Shown in pieces: positions 1,829-23,810 of a stretch of DNA of 23,810 nucleotides. The stretch covers positions 1-23,810 of the IMG/VR virus record IMGVR_UViG_3300035430_000331. The stretch is one strand, 5' to 3'. Both the position numbers and the translations under genes were made by a program. Origin of the DNA: a virus. Positions within the stretch are counted from its first letter, which is position 1. Each line of letters starts with the position of its first letter. The notes below the pieces were generated by a model that saw nothing but the letters and a program-made list of their open reading frames with translations, made no database searches and was not told where the DNA came from.

Positions 1829-4800
1829 TCAATCAACTTCAAGAATTGGTTCGCCCGATCCTCTACCAGTATCTGATACTCTTAAAGTATTAGGGTTAGT
1901 TGTAAATGATTCAACCGGAGAAGAACCATCAATGGTTGTACTTGCTCTTTGTTTAGAACCTTCACTAAATGAATTTTGAAATCCTGTTGTTCTATCACCT
2001 ACATATCTGAAGTGTGATGGAAAGTATCCATCTAGTTTTGTAACTGCAACAATATTACCACCAACTGTTAAGTCTGGTGATTCATTTCCATCACTACCTG
2101 TAAATGGTAGTATACTTACCTTTTCTCTTGTTTTTGTGACTGATATATTTTCTGTTCCAAGACTTGGGTCTGTAGAACTTATATTCTGTGGTATGTTTTG
2201 TGTAAATTGTTCTGTTATTTGAAATACTTTTACTCTATCTTGAACCAAGTTATTATTTTTATCATATCTTGTTCTAATAGCAACACCATCTTTTGCAAAT
2301 AAACCAAAACCTATTTGTGATGGAGATTCAGAACCCATACCTGCTTGTATTTGAGAGTCAGACTCAAACTCCGATGAAATAGTTCCTTCTATTTTTGCAT
2401 CAACTGAAATTGATATACCACCCATATCAGAACCAGAGTTGGTTGTGATTTCACCACTTAGTATAGTATTATCTTCTGTACTAATTGTAGTATCATAATT
2501 ATTTACATCAGATGTTATAATTATTAGTTCTTCGGTGTCTATTGATGTATCGTATGTATCATATGAAGATTCTAAATTAATTTCAGTATCTACATCTAAT
2601 GTTGTTTGATAATCCAATTTTTCAGATACAAGAGTTATATCTTCATCAACAACTATAGTTGTATCATAATTATTCACATCAGATGAAACAATAACATCTT
2701 CATTTACGTCTATTACCGATTCGTAGTTATTTAAAGAACCAGTTGGTTTAGACCACTTAACTTTACTTCTTTCTAAAAAATGTGGTTCAATTAATAAACC
2801 TTTAGAAACTTTTGCTCTTGCAGGTACTAATGATTCAAGTGTGGTAAAAATAGTTTTATCTATATATCTTACCAACTGAATATATTCATATAAGTTTAAA
2901 TTAAATCTATCAAAGTAGTAATTTCTTAATGTCTTTAAATCTTTATATTCATCTTCATATCTATCAGTTGGATTACCAATATAATCATCTATGTTAAAGT
3001 TACCAAGTGATTTTAAAATGTCCATGTTTATTTCTTTCACAGGTGAGAAAAATAAACCCAACTTATCACTATCTATTGGAGATTGGTCAAATGATTTTTT
3101 GGTAGACCTTGATTTATAACTTAAATCACTTATCTTAACTTGTTCTTCAAATCTAACTTTTTGGCCAAATGTAATACCAATCGATGGAACATTTGCCACA
3201 ACAGTTCTATCATAAGCAGTGTAGTTGTAAGGATAACTTGCTTCTGTTGGAAAGTTAGATGCAGTTGCATAAGATTCACCATAGTTATTTCTTACCGAAA
3301 CATTCAATACTGAACCTGATGGAATACCACTTGAAGATTCAACTGATAAGTTTCTTGGGTATTCAAAATCTAAACGGAAAAGTAAATCTTCGGTAGATGC
3401 AGTATAAGAATTACCATCTATTGCATCTGGCATTAAAGTATGATTTTCTATACTCTGTTCATTAAGAGCAACTCTCCATAATCTAAACTCATCCATACTT
3501 CCCGATAAACCACCACCAACTTTTAACTCACTACCACTTTCCCAATTCGAAGTTGTTAGTGTTATAGATGCAGAAGCTTCATTTCTTATTCTACCTTGAA
3601 AACCTTCTTTTGCATAAAGTTCTATTACTTCATTACTACCTGAGAAATCTCTATTAATTACTACTTGTGTATATTCTTCATTAAAGAATGGGAATGTTGA
3701 GGATGATACTACTTCTAAATCGGAACTCGATGATATAGACATTTGTAGATATGCCAACGAACCAGTTGTTTTAATTATATCTACCGACCAATTTCCTTCA
3801 TTTTCAAAAATAGTTTGGTCTTCTTTAATATTGGTTTGTAATCTAGCTTCAATTGAGTTCGGATAATCAGAATAAGAACCACTTGTATAAACTTTCCATG
3901 GGACTATTATTTCCGCATTTGTATCAAAGTTAAGTGCGGCAGTTCTATCATCAAAAGTAGTTTTTGTTGTTGTGCTTCTTGTTGGTTCATTAGGACCACC
4001 AAACTCTACAATACTCAATAGTGAACTTGGAATACCATAACAAGACATTGCAGCATGTAATGCTCTCTTAGTTCCTTTGTGTTTGAGTAAGTAAGGTAAG
4101 TTATTAAGTATTCTTCTCCATATCTCTTGTTGTCTTTGCTCACCTGTCATAGTGGCCGTTGAATTACCATCTTTGTCTTTACCGAATGCATAATCCCATA
4201 ACATTGCCGATGTTACTGATGAATTGGCTTCCCAACCAAATGATTCCAACATATGATAAACTAAGTCGTTAGCTATACCAATATCTTTCTTATGTTCAAG
4301 ATTTTTCATGTTATACACACTATTTGTGTATTGCCATAAAATATCAAAATGTTGACCAATCATTGAGAAGAATAATACAAACTCTTGGCCATTTTGATTA
4401 TTCTTTACATGAAGTGGAATGTTATTTACAAGAGAGTCAAAGTTGTTTCTATCATATTCTCTTGCCGATACAGATGCAGTAACATAATACCAATCTTGAC
4501 CAGCACTTGTTGAAGAAGCAACCGGTGTTAAACCGGTCTTTGGATAGGCAAGAGAACCAGTTGTATCATACAAATATTTTTCAAAAGAATCAAATCCGCC
4601 CTTAAGAGTATTTATTTTTCCTTGAACTCTATTGGCTTCATTAACTACATCTACAGAACCTGTCCATTCTGTACCTGTTTGTAGATTAGATAAATCTGAT
4701 TCATACGATTCGAGTAATCTAAGTTTATACCAAAAATTATTTACTCTTTCTTCTGCAGAAGAATATTTTACAAAATCATTCCAATTATAATCTTCAGTTG

Positions 4801-7114
4801 AACCAGAACCAGTTACGTAATGAATACCTAATTCATCAGTTGTAAATTCACTTGAACTTAGATATGTTGATATAAGTTGATTAGATGTTGATGAACCACT
4901 TGCAATGAGTGTATCAATCATCTCATACCCTATCGGGTCAACCACATCTATATTAAAGTTTGGCTGTAATGGAGTACAAACTTTTACTACCTCATCAACT
5001 ATCTCTACTTCATCAATTACAGGTATGGATTGTAATTTAGAAATCCAAACTTGTTTTTCTGTAGTAATATCAGTTGGAAGTGGTTCGTAAAGTTTAAGTA
5101 CTAAACTATCATCATCAAAAGTTAAATTATCAGTTGCCCATGTAGAAATAATTCTATTCTTACCATCTCCTAAGTGAAGTTGGTGAGTAAGAAATTTTTG
5201 TGATTCTAATTCTATTACCGATGTGTCAAATTCTCTTTGAAAAGCTTCTCTAAGGTCTTTTACTACATCTTCTCTTTTTATTCTAAGACCTCTATCGAAT
5301 ATAATACCTATTTCTTCTACTCTACCGTCTGCTATATCATCAGCTTCAGTATTATAAGGAACTAAAAATAATTTAAGTTCAATCTTGTCTTGTATATCTT
5401 CAACTATAACTTTACCAACACTTAATACATCTTTTATATTAAGTGGAATTTTACCGTTTGGAGAAGCCTTTGGAACTAATAAGTTTCTTGAGGTTATTTT
5501 CTGTGAATAAATCTCAACATAGTTTGTATTAATAGATTGTAATACAATATCAAAAGGAATATTTAAACCAGCAAAATCTTCCCCTTGTATATTAGCAGGA
5601 TAATCTATTCGTTGAATATCAGGACCTGGTATAAATCTGTTTTCTACTACATTTATATTAAGACTTACTACTTCACCACTACCTGCGGACTTTGAGTAAG
5701 GCCTAAATCTAACTATATATTGGCCAAACCCATTTTGAAAATCTTCCTTTTTTAAAAGTAGTGGAGATTTAGTAGGAATAGTTCTAACAATATTACCAAT
5801 AGAGTATTCAATCTCTTCTGTATTCTTAGTTGAAAAATCAATTCTTAAATCTCTTCCTTGTGTGAGATTATATTCAATATTGGTTTCTCTTAGTTGAATT
5901 ACAGGTTGATTTGGTGGAGGTGTTTTAGCCGCCTTCGTTAAAACTACAAGTATATTTAAATCATTTTCACCTATCTCTTCTTGAGTTTCAAATATATTTG
6001 ATTCTCTTTTTTTATTACCATTATTAATTGTAATATTTAAATCATACTCAGAATAACTAATATTAAAAGGATTATAAAATTGTATGTAATTTCCTTGGGT
6101 TTCTGAAATTTCTATTTCAAATGTTTGTTGTTCTAATCCTACTAATCCTTCTTTTCCATTACTTAATTTAAATCCAACTAATTCATCAACTACGTCACCA
6201 GATATAATAACTTTTCTTTTTGTTGGTGGTAATGGTGCTTTTTTAACTACATCAACTTGGAATGTTAGTATACTTCCAATTAATTCTTCTATTAATGGAA
6301 CAACGATACTACCATTAGTTGCACTCTGCTCACCGTCTTGTGAAATAAGTTTGAATTTTTTTATTTCAAACTCATTTGATTTATCAGTTGTAAAAACTCG
6401 TAATTCTTCTAACTGATTTGTTGGTGGTGGTGGGGTTGTACCAATTGGGTCACCTGGTTCAAAATCTTCTTCTATAGAACTTATATCATAATCAACTTTA
6501 AGTTGTTGTCCACTTGGAATAGATACCGGTTCACTATCTCCTATTTGATAAAATAAAGGGTATCCTTCTGGATAATTTGCCTCAAATATAAATCCACTAT
6601 CTATTGTTTTTTCTGGTGGTATTTCTTCTAATGTAAAATCTAATCTACAAAAGTTATTTTTATCTCTATCTAAAATACCATCTTGAACTGGTGTTATATA
6701 CTGGTCTTGAACAAATGTTCCATCTTCTTGTTGTTTTTCTACACTTATATCATAGTAAGTAAATATTAAATCTGTATCAGTTTTCTTTTCATTTAACTTT
6801 TCAATCGCAGTTACACGATATACATCATTTGATATCGTACCTTCCTTAACAACAGTAAATACTCTTGGTGTTAAAAGTTGTTTAAGTGTATAAAATATAT
6901 CATTAGGTGCAGTTCCTATATCTTTATCTTTTGTTTCGGAATCTACATCTCCTTTTAATTTTATTACACCACCTGATATAGTAGTTTTAAAACTAATTAA
7001 AACACCATCTTCATCAATATTTACAGGTGGTACAGTTAGGCCTAATTTATTTAAAGGGTTATCGGAGTTGCCGTTTTCACCATTGTTGAACTCATCTTCT
7101 GGATTTTCTTCCAT
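1829..7114 (-). CDS. Giant baseplate/tail protein with LamG-like domain and 19-aa repeats
   Basis: At 1761 residues this is the largest gene in the window. About residues 1-650 are beta-rich with proline linkers (GTTPPPPTNQ, KTPPPNQP), suggesting several Ig-like domains. Residues about 1000-1038 hold NLPYLLKHKGTKRALHAAM followed by CYGIPSS, a signature I associate with large tail/baseplate proteins resembling phage tail protein I. Residues about 1060-1255 look like a LamG/concanavalin jellyroll (IIVPWKVYTSGSY, SGSMDEFRLWRVAL, LLFRLDFEYP). Residues about 1340-1460 contain DDYIGNPTDRYEDEY and LVPARAKVSKGLLIEPHFL, a conserved block after the LamG region in this class. Five 19-residue repeats follow at 1464-1558, then a Ser/Thr-rich tail. 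The start ATG shares its first A with the upstream TAA stop. A baseplate or distal-tail location is inferred; an equivalent to T4 gp7 or gp10 is possible but unproven. Confidence 0.8.
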   Translation of the reverse strand: MEENPEDEFNNGENGNSDNPLNKLGLTVPPVNIDEDGVLISFKTTISGGVIKLKGDVDSETKDKDIGTAPNDIFYTLKQLLTPRVFTVVKEGTISNDVYRVTAIEKLNEKKTDTDLIFTYYDISVEKQQEDGTFVQDQYITPVQDGILDRDKNNFCRLDFTLEEIPPEKTIDSGFIFEANYPEGYPLFYQIGDSEPVSIPSGQQLKVDYDISSIEEDFEPGDPIGTTPPPPTNQLEELRVFTTDKSNEFEIKKFKLISQDGEQSATNGSIVVPLIEELIGSILTFQVDVVKKAPLPPTKRKVIISGDVVDELVGFKLSNGKEGLVGLEQQTFEIEISETQGNYIQFYNPFNISYSEYDLNITINNGNKKRESNIFETQEEIGENDLNILVVLTKAAKTPPPNQPVIQLRETNIEYNLTQGRDLRIDFSTKNTEEIEYSIGNIVRTIPTKSPLLLKKEDFQNGFGQYIVRFRPYSKSAGSGEVVSLNINVVENRFIPGPDIQRIDYPANIQGEDFAGLNIPFDIVLQSINTNYVEIYSQKITSRNLLVPKASPNGKIPLNIKDVLSVGKVIVEDIQDKIELKLFLVPYNTEADDIADGRVEEIGIIFDRGLRIKREDVVKDLREAFQREFDTSVIELESQKFLTHQLHLGDGKNRIISTWATDNLTFDDDSLVLKLYEPLPTDITTEKQVWISKLQSIPVIDEVEIVDEVVKVCTPLQPNFNIDVVDPIGYEMIDTLIASGSSTSNQLISTYLSSSEFTTDELGIHYVTGSGSTEDYNWNDFVKYSSAEERVNNFWYKLRLLESYESDLSNLQTGTEWTGSVDVVNEANRVQGKINTLKGGFDSFEKYLYDTTGSLAYPKTGLTPVASSTSAGQDWYYVTASVSAREYDRNNFDSLVNNIPLHVKNNQNGQEFVLFFSMIGQHFDILWQYTNSVYNMKNLEHKKDIGIANDLVYHMLESFGWEANSSVTSAMLWDYAFGKDKDGNSTATMTGEQRQQEIWRRILNNLPYLLKHKGTKRALHAAMSCYGIPSSLLSIVEFGGPNEPTRSTTTKTTFDDRTAALNFDTNAEIIVPWKVYTSGSYSDYPNSIEARLQTNIKEDQTIFENEGNWSVDIIKTTGSLAYLQMSISSSSDLEVVSSSTFPFFNEEYTQVVINRDFSGSNEVIELYAKEGFQGRIRNEASASITLTTSNWESGSELKVGGGLSGSMDEFRLWRVALNEQSIENHTLMPDAIDGNSYTASTEDLLFRLDFEYPRNLSVESSSGIPSGSVLNVSVRNNYGESYATASNFPTEASYPYNYTAYDRTVVANVPSIGITFGQKVRFEEQVKISDLSYKSRSTKKSFDQSPIDSDKLGLFFSPVKEINMDILKSLGNFNIDDYIGNPTDRYEDEYKDLKTLRNYYFDRFNLNLYEYIQLVRYIDKTIFTTLESLVPARAKVSKGLLIEPHFLERSKVKWSKPTGSLNNYESVIDVNEDVIVSSDVNNYDTTIVVDEDITLVSEKLDYQTTLDVDTEINLESSYDTYDTSIDTEELIIITSDVNNYDTTISTEDNTILSGEITTNSGSDMGGISISVDAKIEGTISSEFESDSQIQAGMGSESPSQIGFGLFAKDGVAIRTRYDKNNNLVQDRVKVFQITEQFTQNIPQNISSTDPSLGTENISVTKTREKVSILPFTGSDGNESPDLTVGGNIVAVTKLDGYFPSHFRYVGDRTTGFQNSFSEGSKQRASTTIDGSSPVESFTTNPNTLRVSDTGRGSGEPILEVD
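2441..2725 (-). repeat. Five tandem 57-bp (19-aa) coding repeats
   Basis: Residues 1464-1558 of the giant tail protein divide exactly into five units of 19 residues, each opening with Y-[EDQ]-[ST]-[VTS]-[IL]. The units begin YESVIDV, YDTTIVV, YQTTLDV, YDTSIDT and YDTTIST. The second half of most units is acidic then hydrophobic (for example EDVIVSSDVNN, EEIIITSDVNN-like). Units 1 and 4 share the ending SDVNN. The DNA copies have diverged, so the period is clearest in the protein. The pattern alternates hydrophobic and polar residues, as in a beta-strand repeat or short beta-helix. There is no gap or stop between units. Confidence 0.85.
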
Positions 7115-16371: not shown

Positions 16372-18084
16372 TTAGAGTATCTTCTTTTTTACAATATAAT
16401 TATGTAAAACCAAAACATCCATATCACAATTTAGATAAGTTTCTATAGCACTTCTTGGGTCTAAAACCATGGTTTGGTCTTTTAAGTTAAACGAAGTGTT
16501 TAGAACAATAGGATATTTATTGATACTAGCGAGTGCATCTAATAACTTAGACATTCTCCTGTGTTGTGAAGTTTCCAAGGTTTGTATCCTAGCACTTCCA
16601 TCAACATGAGTAATAGAGGGAAGTTCTTCATGATATTCTTTTTTAACTTTAACTACTTGGTTCATATAAGGAACATCTTGTGGGTAGTCAAAATATTTAG
16701 TCATAGCTGATTTTTTTACAATAGGAGCAAAAGGTCTGAATCCTTCTCTCTTTTTTACTACTCTATTAAGTCGAGCTTTCATATCAGGGTCTCTTGGGTT
16801 TGCTAGAATAGAACGATTACCAAGAGCTCTTGCACCAAACTCTAATTTACCTTCAAACCAACCAACTACATTTCCATCTTTAATTAGTTCTGCAACTTCA
16901 TTAATTAGTTGAGTGTCTAATTTTTTTTCAAAATAAACCTTATCTGAAAAGTCTTGTAATATTTTATCAACTATTTCGTTTGAATAATATGGACCTAAAT
17001 AAGGAACTTTGTTTTGTTTTCTACCAGATTTATTATTTATAGTGTAATAATAATGTAAACAAGCTCCGATAGCAGAACCCGCATCTGATGGTGCCGGTGG
17101 AATCCAAACATCTTTAAAGTTTGTTTTATCTAATATTTTTCCATTGGCAGTTCCATTATACGCACAACCACCACTTACACACAAATTACTTGTTGGTCTT
17201 AGTGCATTTAATCTATCTAATAATCTAAAAAATAAAAACTCATATGTTTGTTGTAGACCAGCGGCAATATCTTTATGTTTTTGAGTAAACTCATCACCTG
17301 GTAATCTTGGTGGTATTCCAAATAGTTTAGATAATTTTCTATTAAACATTTCATACTCATTCCAATCATAAACAAAGTAATCCATATTTAAAGAAAAACT
17401 ATTATTTTCTTCTAAAGTATAAAGTTGTTTAAATTGTTCTTCATATACTGATGGGTCACCGTAGGGAGCCAATCCCATAACTTTATATTCACCTTCCAAA
17501 GGTTTAAATCCAAGAAAAGCAGTAAAGGTAGAATACAACATCCCTAAAGAAGATGGGAAATCTATACCTTCTAGTTTTACTAACTTATTTCCTTCTGCAT
17601 GAAATAAATCAAGTGTATCCCACTCACCTACTCCATCTACTGTAATAATGGAAGCTTCTTTAAAATCAGATGTGTAGTAAGCATAAGCAGCATGTGAGTA
17701 ATGGTGGTCACCAAATATAATAGGAACTTTTTCACCAATCAAGTTCCTCATATCTTTTTCAAAGTCAAGATACTGTCTTTTATTTCTTTCAAGTATCTTT
17801 CCTCTTTTAAATATATTTTTAATACCACCCCTTTTTAAACTTTTCTCTATTCTGTCTAATTTTTTACGAGGGTCTTCATAGTAACAAACTGCGGATAGTT
17901 CGTTTGGTTTAATACCAACTTCATTTAATAACCAATTTATAGAATTTATTGGAAACGAGTTGTCGTGTTTAATACCAGTAAATCGTTCTTCTTCAACTGC
18001 TCCTTTAACTTCACCATCAACTACAATAGCGGCAGCACTATCGTGATACCCAGCTGAAATACCTAATAAATAACTTTTTTCCAT
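16372..18084 (-). CDS. Carbamoyltransferase, NodU/CmcH/TobZ family
   Basis: This 570-residue protein is a full-length member of the family that uses carbamoyl phosphate and ATP, through a carbamoyl-adenylate, to O-carbamoylate small molecules or sugars. The N-terminal domain opens LLGISAGYHDSAAAIVVDG and EERFTGIKHD, carries the metal-binding type motif GDHHYSHAAYAYY near residue 124, ITVDGVGEWDT near 150, and CVSGGCAYNGTANGK near 310. The C-terminal YrdC-like domain has VVGWFEGKLEFGARALGNRS near 405-424, REGFRPFAPIVK, and VLNTSFNLKDQTMVLDPRSA. All expected blocks appear intact. The gene starts 12 bases after gp55 and ends at a terminator. Related genes are known in marine myoviruses. Possible targets are a surface or virion glycan, or a modified nucleotide; cytosine carbamoyloxymethylation by a phage enzyme of this family has been reported. 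The substrate cannot be read from this sequence. Confidence 0.93.
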   Translation of the reverse strand: MEKSYLLGISAGYHDSAAAIVVDGEVKGAVEEERFTGIKHDNSFPINSINWLLNEVGIKPNELSAVCYYEDPRKKLDRIEKSLKRGGIKNIFKRGKILERNKRQYLDFEKDMRNLIGEKVPIIFGDHHYSHAAYAYYTSDFKEASIITVDGVGEWDTLDLFHAEGNKLVKLEGIDFPSSLGMLYSTFTAFLGFKPLEGEYKVMGLAPYGDPSVYEEQFKQLYTLEENNSFSLNMDYFVYDWNEYEMFNRKLSKLFGIPPRLPGDEFTQKHKDIAAGLQQTYEFLFFRLLDRLNALRPTSNLCVSGGCAYNGTANGKILDKTNFKDVWIPPAPSDAGSAIGACLHYYYTINNKSGRKQNKVPYLGPYYSNEIVDKILQDFSDKVYFEKKLDTQLINEVAELIKDGNVVGWFEGKLEFGARALGNRSILANPRDPDMKARLNRVVKKREGFRPFAPIVKKSAMTKYFDYPQDVPYMNQVVKVKKEYHEELPSITHVDGSARIQTLETSQHRRMSKLLDALASINKYPIVLNTSFNLKDQTMVLDPRSAIETYLNCDMDVLVLHNYIVKKKIL

Positions 18085-20095: not shown

Positions 20096-20719
20096 TTATA
20101 AGATTTCTAAATAAGGTGAACGGAGTACACCTGTGTTATCTAATATATGTTTGTATTTTACAAACTCAGTAGAACCATCTTCAAGTTTTACCATTACCTT
20201 GTCATTTCTACCGTAAGTTTTTTTATTAGTATGTTGTTTAACGTACCTTCGTATAGGGTCTGTGATTAAGATACCATTAAGATGGTCTATCTCATGTTGA
20301 GCTACTACACACTCTAACATACCCTCATCATTCCAAAAATCATCGTTACTATTCCAAGTATCACTATCAGGTGAGAATGTAACCATACCAAGATTATCAC
20401 ATTCAACAGTTACTGATTTACTACGGACAGTTGAAACTGCCTTTCCCATGGTTCTTGGTATAGATAAGCATTGTTCTAAGTATACTACACTTTCTTCACT
20501 CTGTTCAACTATTCTAGGATTTACTAAAAGAAGTGGTTCTTTAACATTTATCAAACACACTCTTTCGTTTATACCAACTTGGTTAGATGATAAACCAATA
20601 CCACCAAATCTTCTCAATCCGTAATCCAATTTTTCTTGAAGTTTGGATAACTCAGATTGTGTTAGGGTTGACTCAGTTACTACTCGTCTAAGCTTGTCCT
20701 TATTTTTTTCTAATTTCAT
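20096..20719 (-). CDS. def: Peptide deformylase with variant motifs
   Basis: This 207-residue metalloenzyme would remove the formyl group from the N-terminal Met of nascent proteins. Motif I is GGIGLSSNQ at residues 39-47 (usual GxGxAAxQ, here with Ser-Ser-Asn). Motif II is EQCLS at 82-86 (usual EGCLS; the Gly is Gln), with metal ligand Cys84. Motif III is QHEIDHLNG at 141-149, with His142 and His146 as ligands and Glu143 as the catalytic base. All ligands are therefore present. The C-terminus is extended by about 40 residues (MVKLEDGSTEFVKYKHILDN). Viral deformylases are known in marine phages, where they are thought to favour host or phage proteins during infection. The ATG at 20719 follows a TTGACT/TATATT promoter-like element. 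Confidence 0.94.
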   Translation of the reverse strand: MKLEKNKDKLRRVVTESTLTQSELSKLQEKLDYGLRRFGGIGLSSNQVGINERVCLINVKEPLLLVNPRIVEQSEESVVYLEQCLSIPRTMGKAVSTVRSKSVTVECDNLGMVTFSPDSDTWNSNDDFWNDEGMLECVVAQHEIDHLNGILITDPIRRYVKQHTNKKTYGRNDKVMVKLEDGSTEFVKYKHILDNTGVLRSPYLEIL

Positions 20720-20779: not shown

Positions 20780-20992
20780 TTATTCAGCTGATTCTCCGTT
20801 CTCTTTGAAGTCCAACCAATCCATATATCCTAAGTCAGGTATATCTTCTCTTTCTTCTTTTGATTTTTCTCTTAAAAAGTCAAGTTCTTGTTGTAGCTTT
20901 TGAATCTTTAATTTCGATTCTTGTGTTTGGGTGTCTTTTAATTTTAATTCAAGTATTTCTTTTGATATATCTACTAACTTATCCATATCCAT
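20780..20992 (-). CDS. Small charged coiled-coil protein
   Basis: This 70-residue protein starts MDMDKLVDISKEILELKLKD and is dominated by a heptad-like helix (KLKIQKLQQELDFLREKSKE) with a short tail (DIPDLGYMDWLDFKENGE). No fold or family is recognised. It starts 1 base after the stop of the 49-residue basic protein gene and is followed by the only promoter-like gap in the region, so it may end the radical SAM transcription unit. Its acidic tail and basic neighbour could be partners, but that is speculation. Confidence 0.65.
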   Translation of the reverse strand: MDMDKLVDISKEILELKLKDTQTQESKLKIQKLQQELDFLREKSKEEREDIPDLGYMDWLDFKENGESAE

Positions 20993-20993
20993 T

Positions 20994-21143
20994 TTATCTT
21001 CCTCTACCTGTTTTTCTTACACTCGTACTTTTACCCATTCCTTTTGAGTTAGTATTAGTGTTACCAAATTTTCCTTTTTGGTTTTTTAAATTATTATTTG
21101 TAGTTTTCTTTTTATTATTTTTTTTAAAAAAATTACTTTCCAT
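20994..21143 (-). CDS. 49-residue very basic protein after the LamG gene
   Basis: The frame runs from ATG at 21143 to TAA at 20996-20994 and encodes 49 residues. It begins MESNFFKKNNKKK and ends KSTSVRKTGRGR. It has about 16 Lys/Arg, one Glu and no Asp, many Asn, and a Gly/Ser-rich second half (KGKFGNTNTNSKGMGKS). No Cys is present. Such composition suits a nucleic-acid- or charge-binding peptide, or a modified peptide substrate. It fills the gap between the LamG-like gene (10 bases upstream) and the 70-residue protein gene (1 base downstream). The tight spacing supports a real gene; there is no Shine-Dalgarno sequence and no family is recognised. Confidence 0.62.
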   Translation of the reverse strand: MESNFFKKNNKKKTTNNNLKNQKGKFGNTNTNSKGMGKSTSVRKTGRGR

Positions 21144-21153
21144 ATTTTAAAAT

Positions 21154-21885
21154 TTAAATTAAATCATCTTCGTATGTATTCTTGGCTGCAAAGTTGCAAT
21201 GACCAGATAAATCCCACACTTTATATAAATTCTTTTCTTTAAAGTTGAAATAAAAAACTAAATCATCCATTGGTTGTGATAATTCTCTTTTATCATTTTT
21301 TGTTTTATCTATAAAATGCCAAATATCTTCATACGAATAGTTTTTGTTGGCAATTAATCCTAGATTATAAAGATTAATATCAGCAAAATATTTATCTTTT
21401 TCTGGCATTCCTTTTTGATAATTTCCACATCCTAAATTAAAAGATGTATTTGTATAATTCTGTAAGGTGCCTTCATAATCTCTTTTTCCATCTACGAGTA
21501 TATTATATGATTCATCGGTTATAAAATATTCAAACCTTCTTTCATCTAAACTATGTTTTACATAAACAAAATATTTGTCATTATAGGATTTTGGTTCTTG
21601 TATATGATATACTAAAGAATCCCATTTGTTTTCACCATCAACTACAGTCCAATAGTCAAAACCTATCCAAGCTTTATCAGAGGATTCTGTCTTAACACAA
21701 AATCCGGTATGCATTCCAGGCCTCATACAAACACCAAAATTTTCACCGGAGTCTTCTGTATTTACTTTAAACTCACACCACATTGTAAAATCTCCTTGCA
21801 TTACAGGATGTGGTTCATAAGTTGATAATTCATACCGTTGAGCTGGTAAGATAATATAAGGCCCTCTTCTTGGAATATTTAACAT
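21154..21885 (-). CDS. LamG/concanavalin-like protein coupled to radical SAM gene
   Basis: This 243-residue protein looks like a single concanavalin/LamG jellyroll. Visible strands include GDFTMWCEFKVNTEDSG, FVYVKHSLDERRFEYFIT, ADINLYNLGLIANKNYSYED, and LVFYFNFKEKNLYKVWDLSG near the C-terminus. It has five cysteines (in TMWCEF, GVCMRP, GFCVKT, LGCGNY and GHCNFA). No signal peptide or membrane segment is seen, so export by the host seems unlikely; a virion or cytoplasmic role fits better. Its ATG lies inside the last codons of the radical SAM gene (7-base overlap), which suggests coupled translation and a functional partnership. It could be a substrate of the enzyme or a glycan-binding partner. 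The fold call is by eye. Confidence 0.75.
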   Translation of the reverse strand: MLNIPRRGPYIILPAQRYELSTYEPHPVMQGDFTMWCEFKVNTEDSGENFGVCMRPGMHTGFCVKTESSDKAWIGFDYWTVVDGENKWDSLVYHIQEPKSYNDKYFVYVKHSLDERRFEYFITDESYNILVDGKRDYEGTLQNYTNTSFNLGCGNYQKGMPEKDKYFADINLYNLGLIANKNYSYEDIWHFIDKTKNDKRELSQPMDDLVFYFNFKEKNLYKVWDLSGHCNFAAKNTYEDDLI

Positions 21886-23321
21886 AGTTCTTTACATTGA
21901 TTATAAAAGTCTTCCATTTCTGGAAATGTTTCAACAAAATTTGTACCACGTCTTTTATCATGTTCATTAAAGAATCGGTAGAAATCTTGTCTGTTTGTAA
22001 TTAAGTCGTTTAAATCTTTTGGAGATAACATCCAATCATATATTCTTTTTAGTTTCTGTATTTCTATATCCGAATAACCAACTAATCTTGTAGAAAAATC
22101 AGGTGTTGCAAAATATTCAGCTAGTTGTGTTTGTTTGTAAACTAAGTCAGCATAAGACTCAGGTAATATTTGTACTGATTGATGTCTTGGATATCTTAAA
22201 TAAGATGAGTCTAAGAATACTGCGGAATTCCAATATCTATCTTCAGAACCATATTTTGTTTTTAAATCATAAACACCTTCAATAACTTTATGATAATTTA
22301 CAACAGATAAAGCGTTATACGTAACCATAAGAGTCAAGTTTACTCGTGGACATTTCTCTAATACTTTATTTATGTTATCCCACCATCTGTTAAAGTCTAA
22401 TCCATTTCTAATGTAATCGGCTTGTTTACCCCAAGTATCTACAGAAGTAAATATAATAAACTCTCTGACTCTATTTTCATCTTCAATTCTTTGTATTTTT
22501 TCAATAAAGTTATCTACCAACTTATCAGGTATTCCCATATTAGAATTAATACCAAGTTGTAAATTTCTATTTGGATTTTCTTCTTCAATAATATAATCCA
22601 ATACCTTCCAAGTATCTTTAGCCATTAAAGGTTCTCCACCTGTAATTCTAAAGGTATGTAAATCTCGATATAAATCTGGCCACCATTTCCAAAATGCTTC
22701 TACATATGGATTGTAATCTTTATGTGGTATTGGAACTTTCTTCTCGTTTTCCATCCAATGCATTGCATTGAATTCACTTGTTGTTGGATATCCACCATGT
22801 TTTTTTACTTCTTCCATCCAAGTTGATGAAAATTGAGGAGCACAATAAGAACACTTGAAATTACAAGCATTAGAAAAAGCAACCTCTACGTATTTTGGAT
22901 TATAATCATCTCTCCAACTTAAATCCTTTATTTCTTCCATATAAGGTTTAGACCAAGATTCAGCTGACTTAAATATTCGGTCAGAAAATCTATCAGAACT
23001 ATCCTCTACATTCCAACAATAATCACATTCAGCTGGTCTTTTGTTTTCCTTCATCTCTTTTCTTTTTAACTTCTTGTATCGAGTGTTATGAAGAGCTGAG
23101 GGATTTCTTTTTACTTCTGCTGCAGATATTTTGTGAGTTGGAGGGTGGTGACATGAGTGAGTATGACCTAGTTGAAGGTGCATAGTTACTTGTGTCCATT
23201 TTGCCAAACAAAAACCACATCCTACATCATCCAAGTTTTTCTTTACATCAAAAAATATTGGATTTTCTGCAATTTGGTCAGAGTGATTATTTTCTTTTTT
23301 TGCTTCTATTGTTTCTTCCAT
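21879..23321 (-). CDS. Radical SAM protein with N-terminal twitch/SPASM-like domain
   Basis: This 480-residue protein carries the radical SAM motif CNFKCSYC (C153, C157, C160), which holds the [4Fe-4S] cluster that splits S-adenosylmethionine. The SAM-binding GGEP is at 228-231 (FRITGGEPLMAKDTW). The N-terminal domain (about 30-110) has CGFCLAKWTQVTMHL, HTHSCHHPP and CDYCWNVED, with Cys35, 38, 57, 99 and 102 as candidate ligands of an auxiliary cluster. This arrangement matches the twitch-type radical SAM proteins of marine phages and of peptide-modifying enzymes. The protein ends CKELC. The substrate is unknown. The upstream neighbour is a thymidylate synthase 30 bases away; downstream the LamG-like gene overlaps it. 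The ATG is preceded by an AT-rich tract (TATATATATTTATTTAT) without Shine-Dalgarno sequence. It could modify protein, peptide or nucleotide. Confidence 0.9.
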   Translation of the reverse strand: MEETIEAKKENNHSDQIAENPIFFDVKKNLDDVGCGFCLAKWTQVTMHLQLGHTHSCHHPPTHKISAAEVKRNPSALHNTRYKKLKRKEMKENKRPAECDYCWNVEDSSDRFSDRIFKSAESWSKPYMEEIKDLSWRDDYNPKYVEVAFSNACNFKCSYCAPQFSSTWMEEVKKHGGYPTTSEFNAMHWMENEKKVPIPHKDYNPYVEAFWKWWPDLYRDLHTFRITGGEPLMAKDTWKVLDYIIEEENPNRNLQLGINSNMGIPDKLVDNFIEKIQRIEDENRVREFIIFTSVDTWGKQADYIRNGLDFNRWWDNINKVLEKCPRVNLTLMVTYNALSVVNYHKVIEGVYDLKTKYGSEDRYWNSAVFLDSSYLRYPRHQSVQILPESYADLVYKQTQLAEYFATPDFSTRLVGYSDIEIQKLKRIYDWMLSPKDLNDLITNRQDFYRFFNEHDKRRGTNFVETFPEMEDFYNQCKELC

Positions 23322-23351: not shown

Positions 23352-23810
23352 TTAATTAGACAAAGGTGCAACTAATCTGTCGTGATGATTATAATTAAGT
23401 ATCTCATAATCAAACTCACCGTTCAAAATATCTACATTACTCAATTTTATTTTTGGTAAGTTTGGATACGGTTTTCTTGTGAGTTGTTCATACGCCTGTT
23501 TAATATGGTTGCTATATAAATGTACATCTCCTAAACTACCAATTAAATGTTCGGGTATCATATTTACTTCTTGTGCTAGTAATAAAAGTAGAGTACCGTA
23601 GGAGGCTATATTAAAAGGAAGACCAAGAAATGTATCTACCGAACGTTGATTCCACATTAAAGAGATTGCTCTGGTTGGAATATTGTATTTTTCATAGTTT
23701 TCCTGGTTTATGATAGCATCTGTAAATCTAAAATTATTTTTTGATAAAGCATACTCCATTCTTTCTACCATATTCAATTCTCTTGTATAAACTTGAAATC
23801 CATAATGACA
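23352..23810 (-). CDS. thyA: Thymidylate synthase, 5' part cut by window edge
   Basis: The visible 152 codons are the C-terminal part of a thymidylate synthase, which makes dTMP from dUMP using methylene-tetrahydrofolate. The frame stays open past the ATG/TTG codons near 23777 to base 23810, whose last codon is the catalytic Cys of the CH motif (visible fragment CHYGFQVYTREL). WNQRSVDTFLGLPFNIASYG includes the phosphate-binding Arg (fragment residue 56) and the dUMP-binding Asn (fragment residue 67). GDVHLYSNH and the C-terminal YNHHDRLVAPLSN complete the active-site blocks. Asn, rather than Asp, at the base-binding position points to dUMP and argues against dCMP hydroxymethylase. About 35 extra residues lie between the catalytic Cys loop and the phosphate-binding Arg compared with E. 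coli enzyme. The gene ends 30 bases before the radical SAM gene. Confidence 0.93.
   Translation of the reverse strand, partial: CHYGFQVYTRELNMVERMEYALSKNNFRFTDAIINQENYEKYNIPTRAISLMWNQRSVDTFLGLPFNIASYGTLLLLLAQEVNMIPEHLIGSLGDVHLYSNHIKQAYEQLTRKPYPNLPKIKLSNVDILNGEFDYEILNYNHHDRLVAPLSN

Follow-up and report, generated by a model that had tools for sequence, protein, structure and literature searches.

A radical SAM enzyme and a LamG-like protein encoded as a conserved gene pair in aquatic viruses

Genes and predicted proteins at the locus

The window, by which we mean the whole stretch of DNA analysed (23,810 nucleotides), is a 23.8-kb virus record with a G+C content of 31% and is probably a genome fragment. 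Its minus strand carries, in order, a thymidylate synthase (TS), a radical SAM enzyme, a LamG-like protein, proteins of 49 and 70 amino acids, and a peptide deformylase, past which lie small genes, a weakly lytic-transglycosylase-like protein, a NodU-like carbamoyltransferase, and tail and baseplate genes including gp25. The coordinates and spacings given by the initial annotation proved correct when re-derived from the sequence: the enzyme and LamG genes overlap by 7 bases, the 49-aa gene starts 10 bases after the LamG gene, and the 70-aa gene follows 1 base later. The features are as follows.

23352..23810, minus strand: thymidylate synthase, C-terminal part, a flanking backbone gene (PF00303, 101 bits)
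21879..23321, minus strand: radical SAM enzyme of 480 aa, N_Twi_rSAM (NF033640, 361 bits; PF04055, 39.6 bits)
23016..23210, minus strand: N-terminal twitch-type module with C38, C57, C99, and C102 (invariant cysteines in a 15-sequence alignment)
22842..22865, minus strand: CX3CX2C motif (C153, C157, C160) for the SAM-binding 4Fe-4S cluster (read from the sequence; invariant in the alignment)
22629..22640, minus strand: GGEP SAM-binding motif, residues 228-231 (invariant in the alignment)
21879..21885, minus strand: 7-base enzyme/LamG overlap, ATGTTAA (read from the sequence)
21154..21885, minus strand: LamG-like partner of 243 aa, predicted concanavalin A-like fold (AF2 fold; homology to GT7 LamG domains)
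20994..21143, minus strand: very basic 49-aa protein, outside the conserved unit (neither related loci nor a scan yielded a relative)
20780..20992, minus strand: acidic coiled-coil-like 70-aa protein, outside the conserved unit (no relative at related loci)
20096..20719, minus strand: peptide deformylase, a flanking backbone gene (PF01327, 81.8 bits; syntenic in relatives)
16372-18084, minus strand: NodU-like carbamoyltransferase, flanked by a conserved 241-aa gene and baseplate genes

Full-length copies of the NodU-like carbamoyltransferase, 56-63% identical, occupy the same place in backbone relatives. A 1761-aa tail-region protein (1829-7114, minus strand) contains a weak Laminin_G_3 stretch at residues 1097-1222 (20.3 bits, below the cut-off). 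This protein is likely to be structural, and the stretch may be a further LamG-like domain of the phage; no homology was found between this protein and the 1847-aa tail-fibre-like protein of a 91-kb relative. The sequence TATAAATA, considered as a late-promoter-like motif, was discarded because its 8 matches are not above chance.

The enzyme belongs to the radical SAM superfamily and, within it, to the N_Twi_rSAM family: it scored 361.1 bits against NCBIfam NF033640 (cut-off 170), covering profile positions 4-398 of 398, and 39.6 bits against the Pfam Radical_SAM model PF04055, and all 15 of its 15 relatives also matched NF033640. The likeness to this family, which is named by domain only, thus extends over the full length, embracing both the N-terminal cysteine module and the radical SAM core. 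Cysteines occur at positions 35, 38, 57, 99, and 102 in the N-terminal part and at 153, 157, and 160 in the CX3CX2C motif; in the alignment of 15 relatives, C153, C157, C160, the GGEP motif, C38, C57, C99, and C102 were all invariant, and C35 was variable. The twitch-type assignment made by the initial annotation is therefore upheld by the family match, the CX3CX2C motif, and four invariant N-terminal cysteines, although only these four of the five cysteines to which it had drawn attention are conserved. Four conserved cysteine ligands are fit for one twitch-type auxiliary Fe-S cluster, which the N-terminal module is accordingly expected to hold, judging from the aligned residues; the Pfam SPASM model matched the N-terminus of a related enzyme from the same kind of gene island. 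The AF2 model of the enzyme (pLDDT 85) matched radical SAM folds, with SkfB (Z 14.7), BlsE (13.4), DesII (13.3), MoaA (12.8), and anSME (12.4) as neighbours. These similar scores span peptide-, nucleotide-, and sugar-directed enzymes, so the substrate cannot be read from the fold.

The 243-aa partner matched none of the Pfam, NCBIfam, and PHROGs models, including Laminin_G_3 (PF13385) at E 0.05, and no signal peptide is apparent in its sequence. Its AF2 model (pLDDT 76, pTM 0.80) is a ConA-like fold whose neighbours include PAPP-A (top VIA Z 15.0), pentraxins (about 13), laminin G, and the sialidase CBM40, and on this model the protein is predicted to be a laminin-G/concanavalin-A fold. The LamG assignment rests on this prediction together with profile homology to the Laminin_G_3 domains of neighbouring GT7 proteins. 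An iterated partner profile also recovered about 150 long ORFs in relatives, matched in their C-terminal part; by their starts, almost all of these are GT7 galactosyltransferase-like, and the C-terminal part of the GT7 copies that were tested matched Pfam Laminin_G_3 alongside Glyco_transf_7N/7C. By this profile link, the standalone LamG protein is a free version of the domain that most relatives have fused to the glycosyltransferase encoded one gene upstream.

Conservation of the enzyme and its partner

A profile search of viral contigs with the enzyme returned at least 586 encoding stretches, the best 80 of which were retained, and a scan of bacterial genomes returned 21 loci, mostly from Bdellovibrionota or related MAGs; near copies were removed at 95% before neighbours were counted. 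Among the matches listed, the gene following the enzyme encoded LamG in 69 of the 83 non-redundant viral orthologues with an identity to it of 55% or more, namely 50 of the 59 at least 60% identical and 19 of the 24 at 55-60%. With a readable next gene, none of the 42 more distant viral family members among the matches listed and none of the 41 bacterial members had LamG in this position, so that the partner appears confined to one viral clade of N_Twi_rSAM enzymes and is absent beside the Bdellovibrionota members found. One Flavobacteriales and one Pelagibacterales MAG contig in the bacterial scan carried the viral gene arrangement. The Bdellovibrionota and related MAGs (L099-L117) contain LamG-less enzyme homologues, sometimes as several paralogues. 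Fourteen viral orthologues in two clades, among the matches listed, also lack LamG and mostly retain a GT7 gene upstream, which indicates that LamG is not obligatory for the enzyme. The commonest junction between the two genes is a 4-base overlap (35 of the 50 pairs from orthologues at least 60% identical), and the 7-base overlap of the window recurs in L002, L019, L021, and L098.

The association also held in the opposite direction. Standalone LamG ORFs lay directly behind this enzyme family in 85 of 88 cases in these loci, among the matches listed, and the remaining 3 are apparently cut GT7-LamG ORFs. Because the first LamG profile had been seeded with downstream genes, a LamG-first scan of viral contigs was run; alignment A1 was too divergent as a query, and two LamG subgroup alignments used alone recovered 42 loci, from records partly overlapping the enzyme-first set. 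The enzyme was directly upstream in 41 of the 41 testable loci (40 scored, and L207 on inspection), L214 being unjudgeable since it begins 23 bases before LamG. The adjacency is far beyond chance, and the enzyme and LamG genes form a conserved two-gene unit that is widespread in aquatic viruses. The radical SAM/LamG link proposed by the initial annotation, which absence of LamG beside homologous enzymes would have contradicted, is thereby borne out. No enzyme-LamG fusion protein was found, and tblastn of isolated phage genomes with the enzyme and LamG gave no match at the limits used. In the literature searched, we found no paper that names NF033640 or describes either the enzyme-LamG pair or a phage protein of the GT7-LamG type; as far as these searches reached, the pair is undescribed.

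The two small genes downstream are not part of this unit. The 49-aa protein (pI 11.8, net charge about +12.5) and the 70-aa protein had no relatives at any enzyme locus, a direct viral scan with the 49-aa protein recovered none, and the 70-aa protein showed no detectable similarity to a 75-aa gene in the same pre-deformylase slot of a backbone relative. Other genes occupy the slot beside the deformylase in backbone relatives. These results remove both the 49-residue basic protein, which the initial annotation had offered as a possible substrate, and the coiled-coil gene, which it had described as the next gene along, from the candidate members or substrates; the two genes are either part of the variable slot or peculiar to this phage.

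Genomic context and divergence

Among the matches listed, a GT7-like gene lay directly upstream of the enzyme in 52 of the 59 loci and 17 of the 24 loci of the two identity classes. The islands that hold the pair in relatives contain two GT7-LamG genes, a dTDP-sugar epimerase, NAD epimerases, and pieces of a TPP-dependent enzyme, as well as family-2-like glycosyltransferases, a methyltransferase, and GDSL/SGNH-like proteins. Upstream genes across L001-L118 are GT7 beta-4-galactosyltransferase-like/LamG fusions in most islands, usually as tandem pairs. Two islands (L010, 6001-12899; L013, 2086-11588) contain five to six different radical SAM paralogue matches consecutively, several of them with N-terminal cysteine modules. 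A psbA-like gene lies 239 bases after the enzyme in L073, which points to a cyanophage origin of that contig.

Comparable clusters have been described in marine T4-like phages. The host-recognition cluster of pelagimyophages contains glycosyltransferases and radical SAM cassettes and has been linked to host-surface changes (PMC7029224), and 12 radical SAM genes were reported in one marine T4-like genome (PMC5332604). The pelagimyophage and cyanomyophage host-recognition clusters resemble the islands of our relatives in being hypervariable and in combining glycosyltransferases with radical SAM cassettes (PMC7029224), but no description of an enzyme-LamG pair or a GT7-LamG fusion was found for them. 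Unlike these clusters (PMC7029224), the pair in the window lies outside a host-recognition island. It stands alone between TS and the deformylase, outside any glycan island, and the only glycan gene in the 24-kb window is the NodU-like carbamoyltransferase, approximately 3 kb away.

In backbone relatives, the interval between TS and the deformylase, or the slot before the deformylase, is occupied by other genes. The 91-kb backbone relative (L126 record) also has TS before the deformylase with other genes between them; this slot (78873-79941, L244) contains a 2OG-Fe(II) oxygenase and a nucleotidyltransferase-like gene. Some 45 kb from there, the same record holds an enzyme-LamG pair of its own, within a glycan island close to a tail-fibre-like protein that has a Peptidase_S74 domain. 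The presence of the pair alone in the window and in a distant island in the relative indicates that it is not tied to one neighbourhood, and in the window it has the look of a portable cassette occupying a variable slot. A single-protein search of viral contigs recovered no close relatives of the deformylase.

The two members of the pair diverge at very different rates. Across 60 complete GT7/enzyme/LamG trios, mean identity was 72% for the GT7 catalytic part, 47% for the GT7 LamG domain, 64% for the enzyme, and 22% for the partner, which is thus much faster-evolving than its GT7-fused homologue. The partner is nevertheless under purifying selection, with dN/dS values over 15 close pairs of 0.04-0.50, compared with 0.02-0.12 for the enzyme, these ratios being rough because dS is often near saturation. 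The best-kept partner residues are G57, G61, G152, K222, D225, and N231, with H59 kept in 53 of 69; these look like largely fold positions, several of them common to the GT7-fused LamG. No Cys or Ser is conserved among the partners, and the sole common Thr, T34 (49 of 69), is also present in the GT7-fused domain.

In a tree of 112 enzymes, the presence of LamG required 3 changes, compared with 33 in shuffles, which may reflect one gain and two losses. LamG distances correlated with those of the enzyme at r 0.78, and the partial r was 0.72 when both GT7 parts were controlled for (permutation p 0.001); the adjacent GT7 gene tracked poorly (r 0.33-0.43). Since the LamG distances follow the enzyme and those of the equally close GT7 gene do not, the enzyme and LamG are co-inherited while the GT7 neighbour is exchanged.

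Candidate substrates and proposed role

The initial annotation had suggested that the LamG-like protein could be the substrate of the enzyme. The enzyme would then install a side-chain or backbone modification, as anaerobic sulfatase maturases and RiPP maturases do on their protein substrates, and the modified LamG would act as a lectin, an enzyme, or a virion part. Strict adjacency and co-inheritance suit an enzyme-substrate pair, and peptide-modifying SkfB (Z 14.7) and anSME (Z 12.4) are among the best structural neighbours. The SPASM/twitch maturases (SkfB, anSME, SuiB) share the radical SAM core fold and carry auxiliary Fe-S modules, but the auxiliary module is N-terminal in our enzyme, and no short precursor peptide, by which a RiPP maturase locus would be recognized, is conserved beside it. 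Moreover, Bdellovibrionota and two viral clades have the enzyme but no LamG beside it, the partner keeps no Cys or Ser and shares T34 with the GT7-fused domain, and the residues that it preserves best look largely structural, as parts of the fold. One would expect strong conservation of a modification site, but LamG has diverged to a mean identity of 22%. The pairing on which the suggestion was built therefore stands, but the substrate role has become less likely, given the LamG-less enzymes, the lack of an obvious modification site, and the GT7 fusion, and we consider it unlikely. Alternatively, LamG might be a virion component, such as a tail or receptor-binding decoration, with the enzyme modifying a neighbouring structural protein or the LamG of the particle. 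The island adjoins the Peptidase_S74 tail-fibre-like protein in the 91-kb relative, the partner diverges fast, and the tail-region protein of the window has its weak Laminin_G_3 stretch; against this, no structural gene lies consistently beside the pair and the GT7-fused homologue implies an intracellular, enzyme-associated role, making this explanation quite improbable.

A free nucleotide-sugar or other small molecule could also be the substrate, as for DesII, AprD4, BlsE, or viperin-type enzymes, with LamG linked only through the pathway, for instance by binding the finished glycan. The islands with a dTDP-sugar epimerase, NAD epimerases, and a TPP enzyme place relatives of the enzyme in a sugar context, and its core fold lies near BlsE (Z 13.4) and DesII (Z 13.3), with AprD4 matched at a comparable score. 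However, such core-fold similarity is common across the radical SAM superfamily, a PDB sequence search revealed no sequence relation of the enzyme to DesII, AprD4, or BlsE, and the gene overlap and enzyme-specific divergence of LamG suggest a closer tie than a common pathway. To our knowledge, none of these three enzymes has a LamG partner. With prokaryotic viperins (pVip) the enzyme shares the core fold and a weak, local similarity around the SAM motif; with 24.6 bits against NF038283 (cut-off 180), it falls far outside that family, and its identification as a viperin or defence gene was rejected. Overall, a free small-molecule substrate appears doubtful.

We favour, with a probability of roughly 0.45, a glycan-modifying radical SAM enzyme with a lectin-like LamG targeting subunit over the reading in which LamG is the substrate. 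The initial annotation had mentioned a glycan target as an alternative, and the wider gene context is better accommodated by it, although this target is proposed from the genes that neighbour the pair in relatives. The fusion of a LamG homologue to the adjacent glycosyltransferase points to glycan handling; protein binding is also known for LamG folds. A targeting subunit would explain the LamG-less enzymes, the GT7 fusion of the same domain, and the diversification of LamG beside a constant catalyst. Under the favoured scheme, the first gene would provide a radical SAM enzyme carrying an N-terminal auxiliary Fe-S (twitch) module, and the second, whose translation is probably coupled to that of the first, a LamG protein of lectin fold that would most likely serve in a complex as the dedicated targeting or substrate-presenting subunit of the enzyme. 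Together, probably as one glycan-modifying unit, they would radically modify carbohydrate in the host cytoplasm, on a glycan or glycan carrier under construction by virus-encoded glycosyltransferases, and the outcome may be an altered surface glycan on the infected cell or the virion. A bolder extension, which we put forward tentatively, is a split enzyme made up of a conserved catalytic subunit and a rapidly diversifying, cassette-linked lectin that redirects the radical chemistry to different host glycans.

The interest of the pair lies in its wide distribution among viruses and in the combination of a conserved catalyst with a rapidly diversifying partner. Radical SAM genes are scattered through the host-recognition islands of ocean viruses, for which we found no assigned role, and the two-gene unit turns them into a testable biochemical question. 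If LamG targets the enzyme to glycans, the pair would represent a radical enzyme whose lectin subunit is a separate protein, and it would reveal how viruses chemically remodel surface glycans in the course of infection, possibly to block competing phages. If the split-enzyme proposal is true, marine viruses would possess an evolvable addressing module for radical carbohydrate modification.
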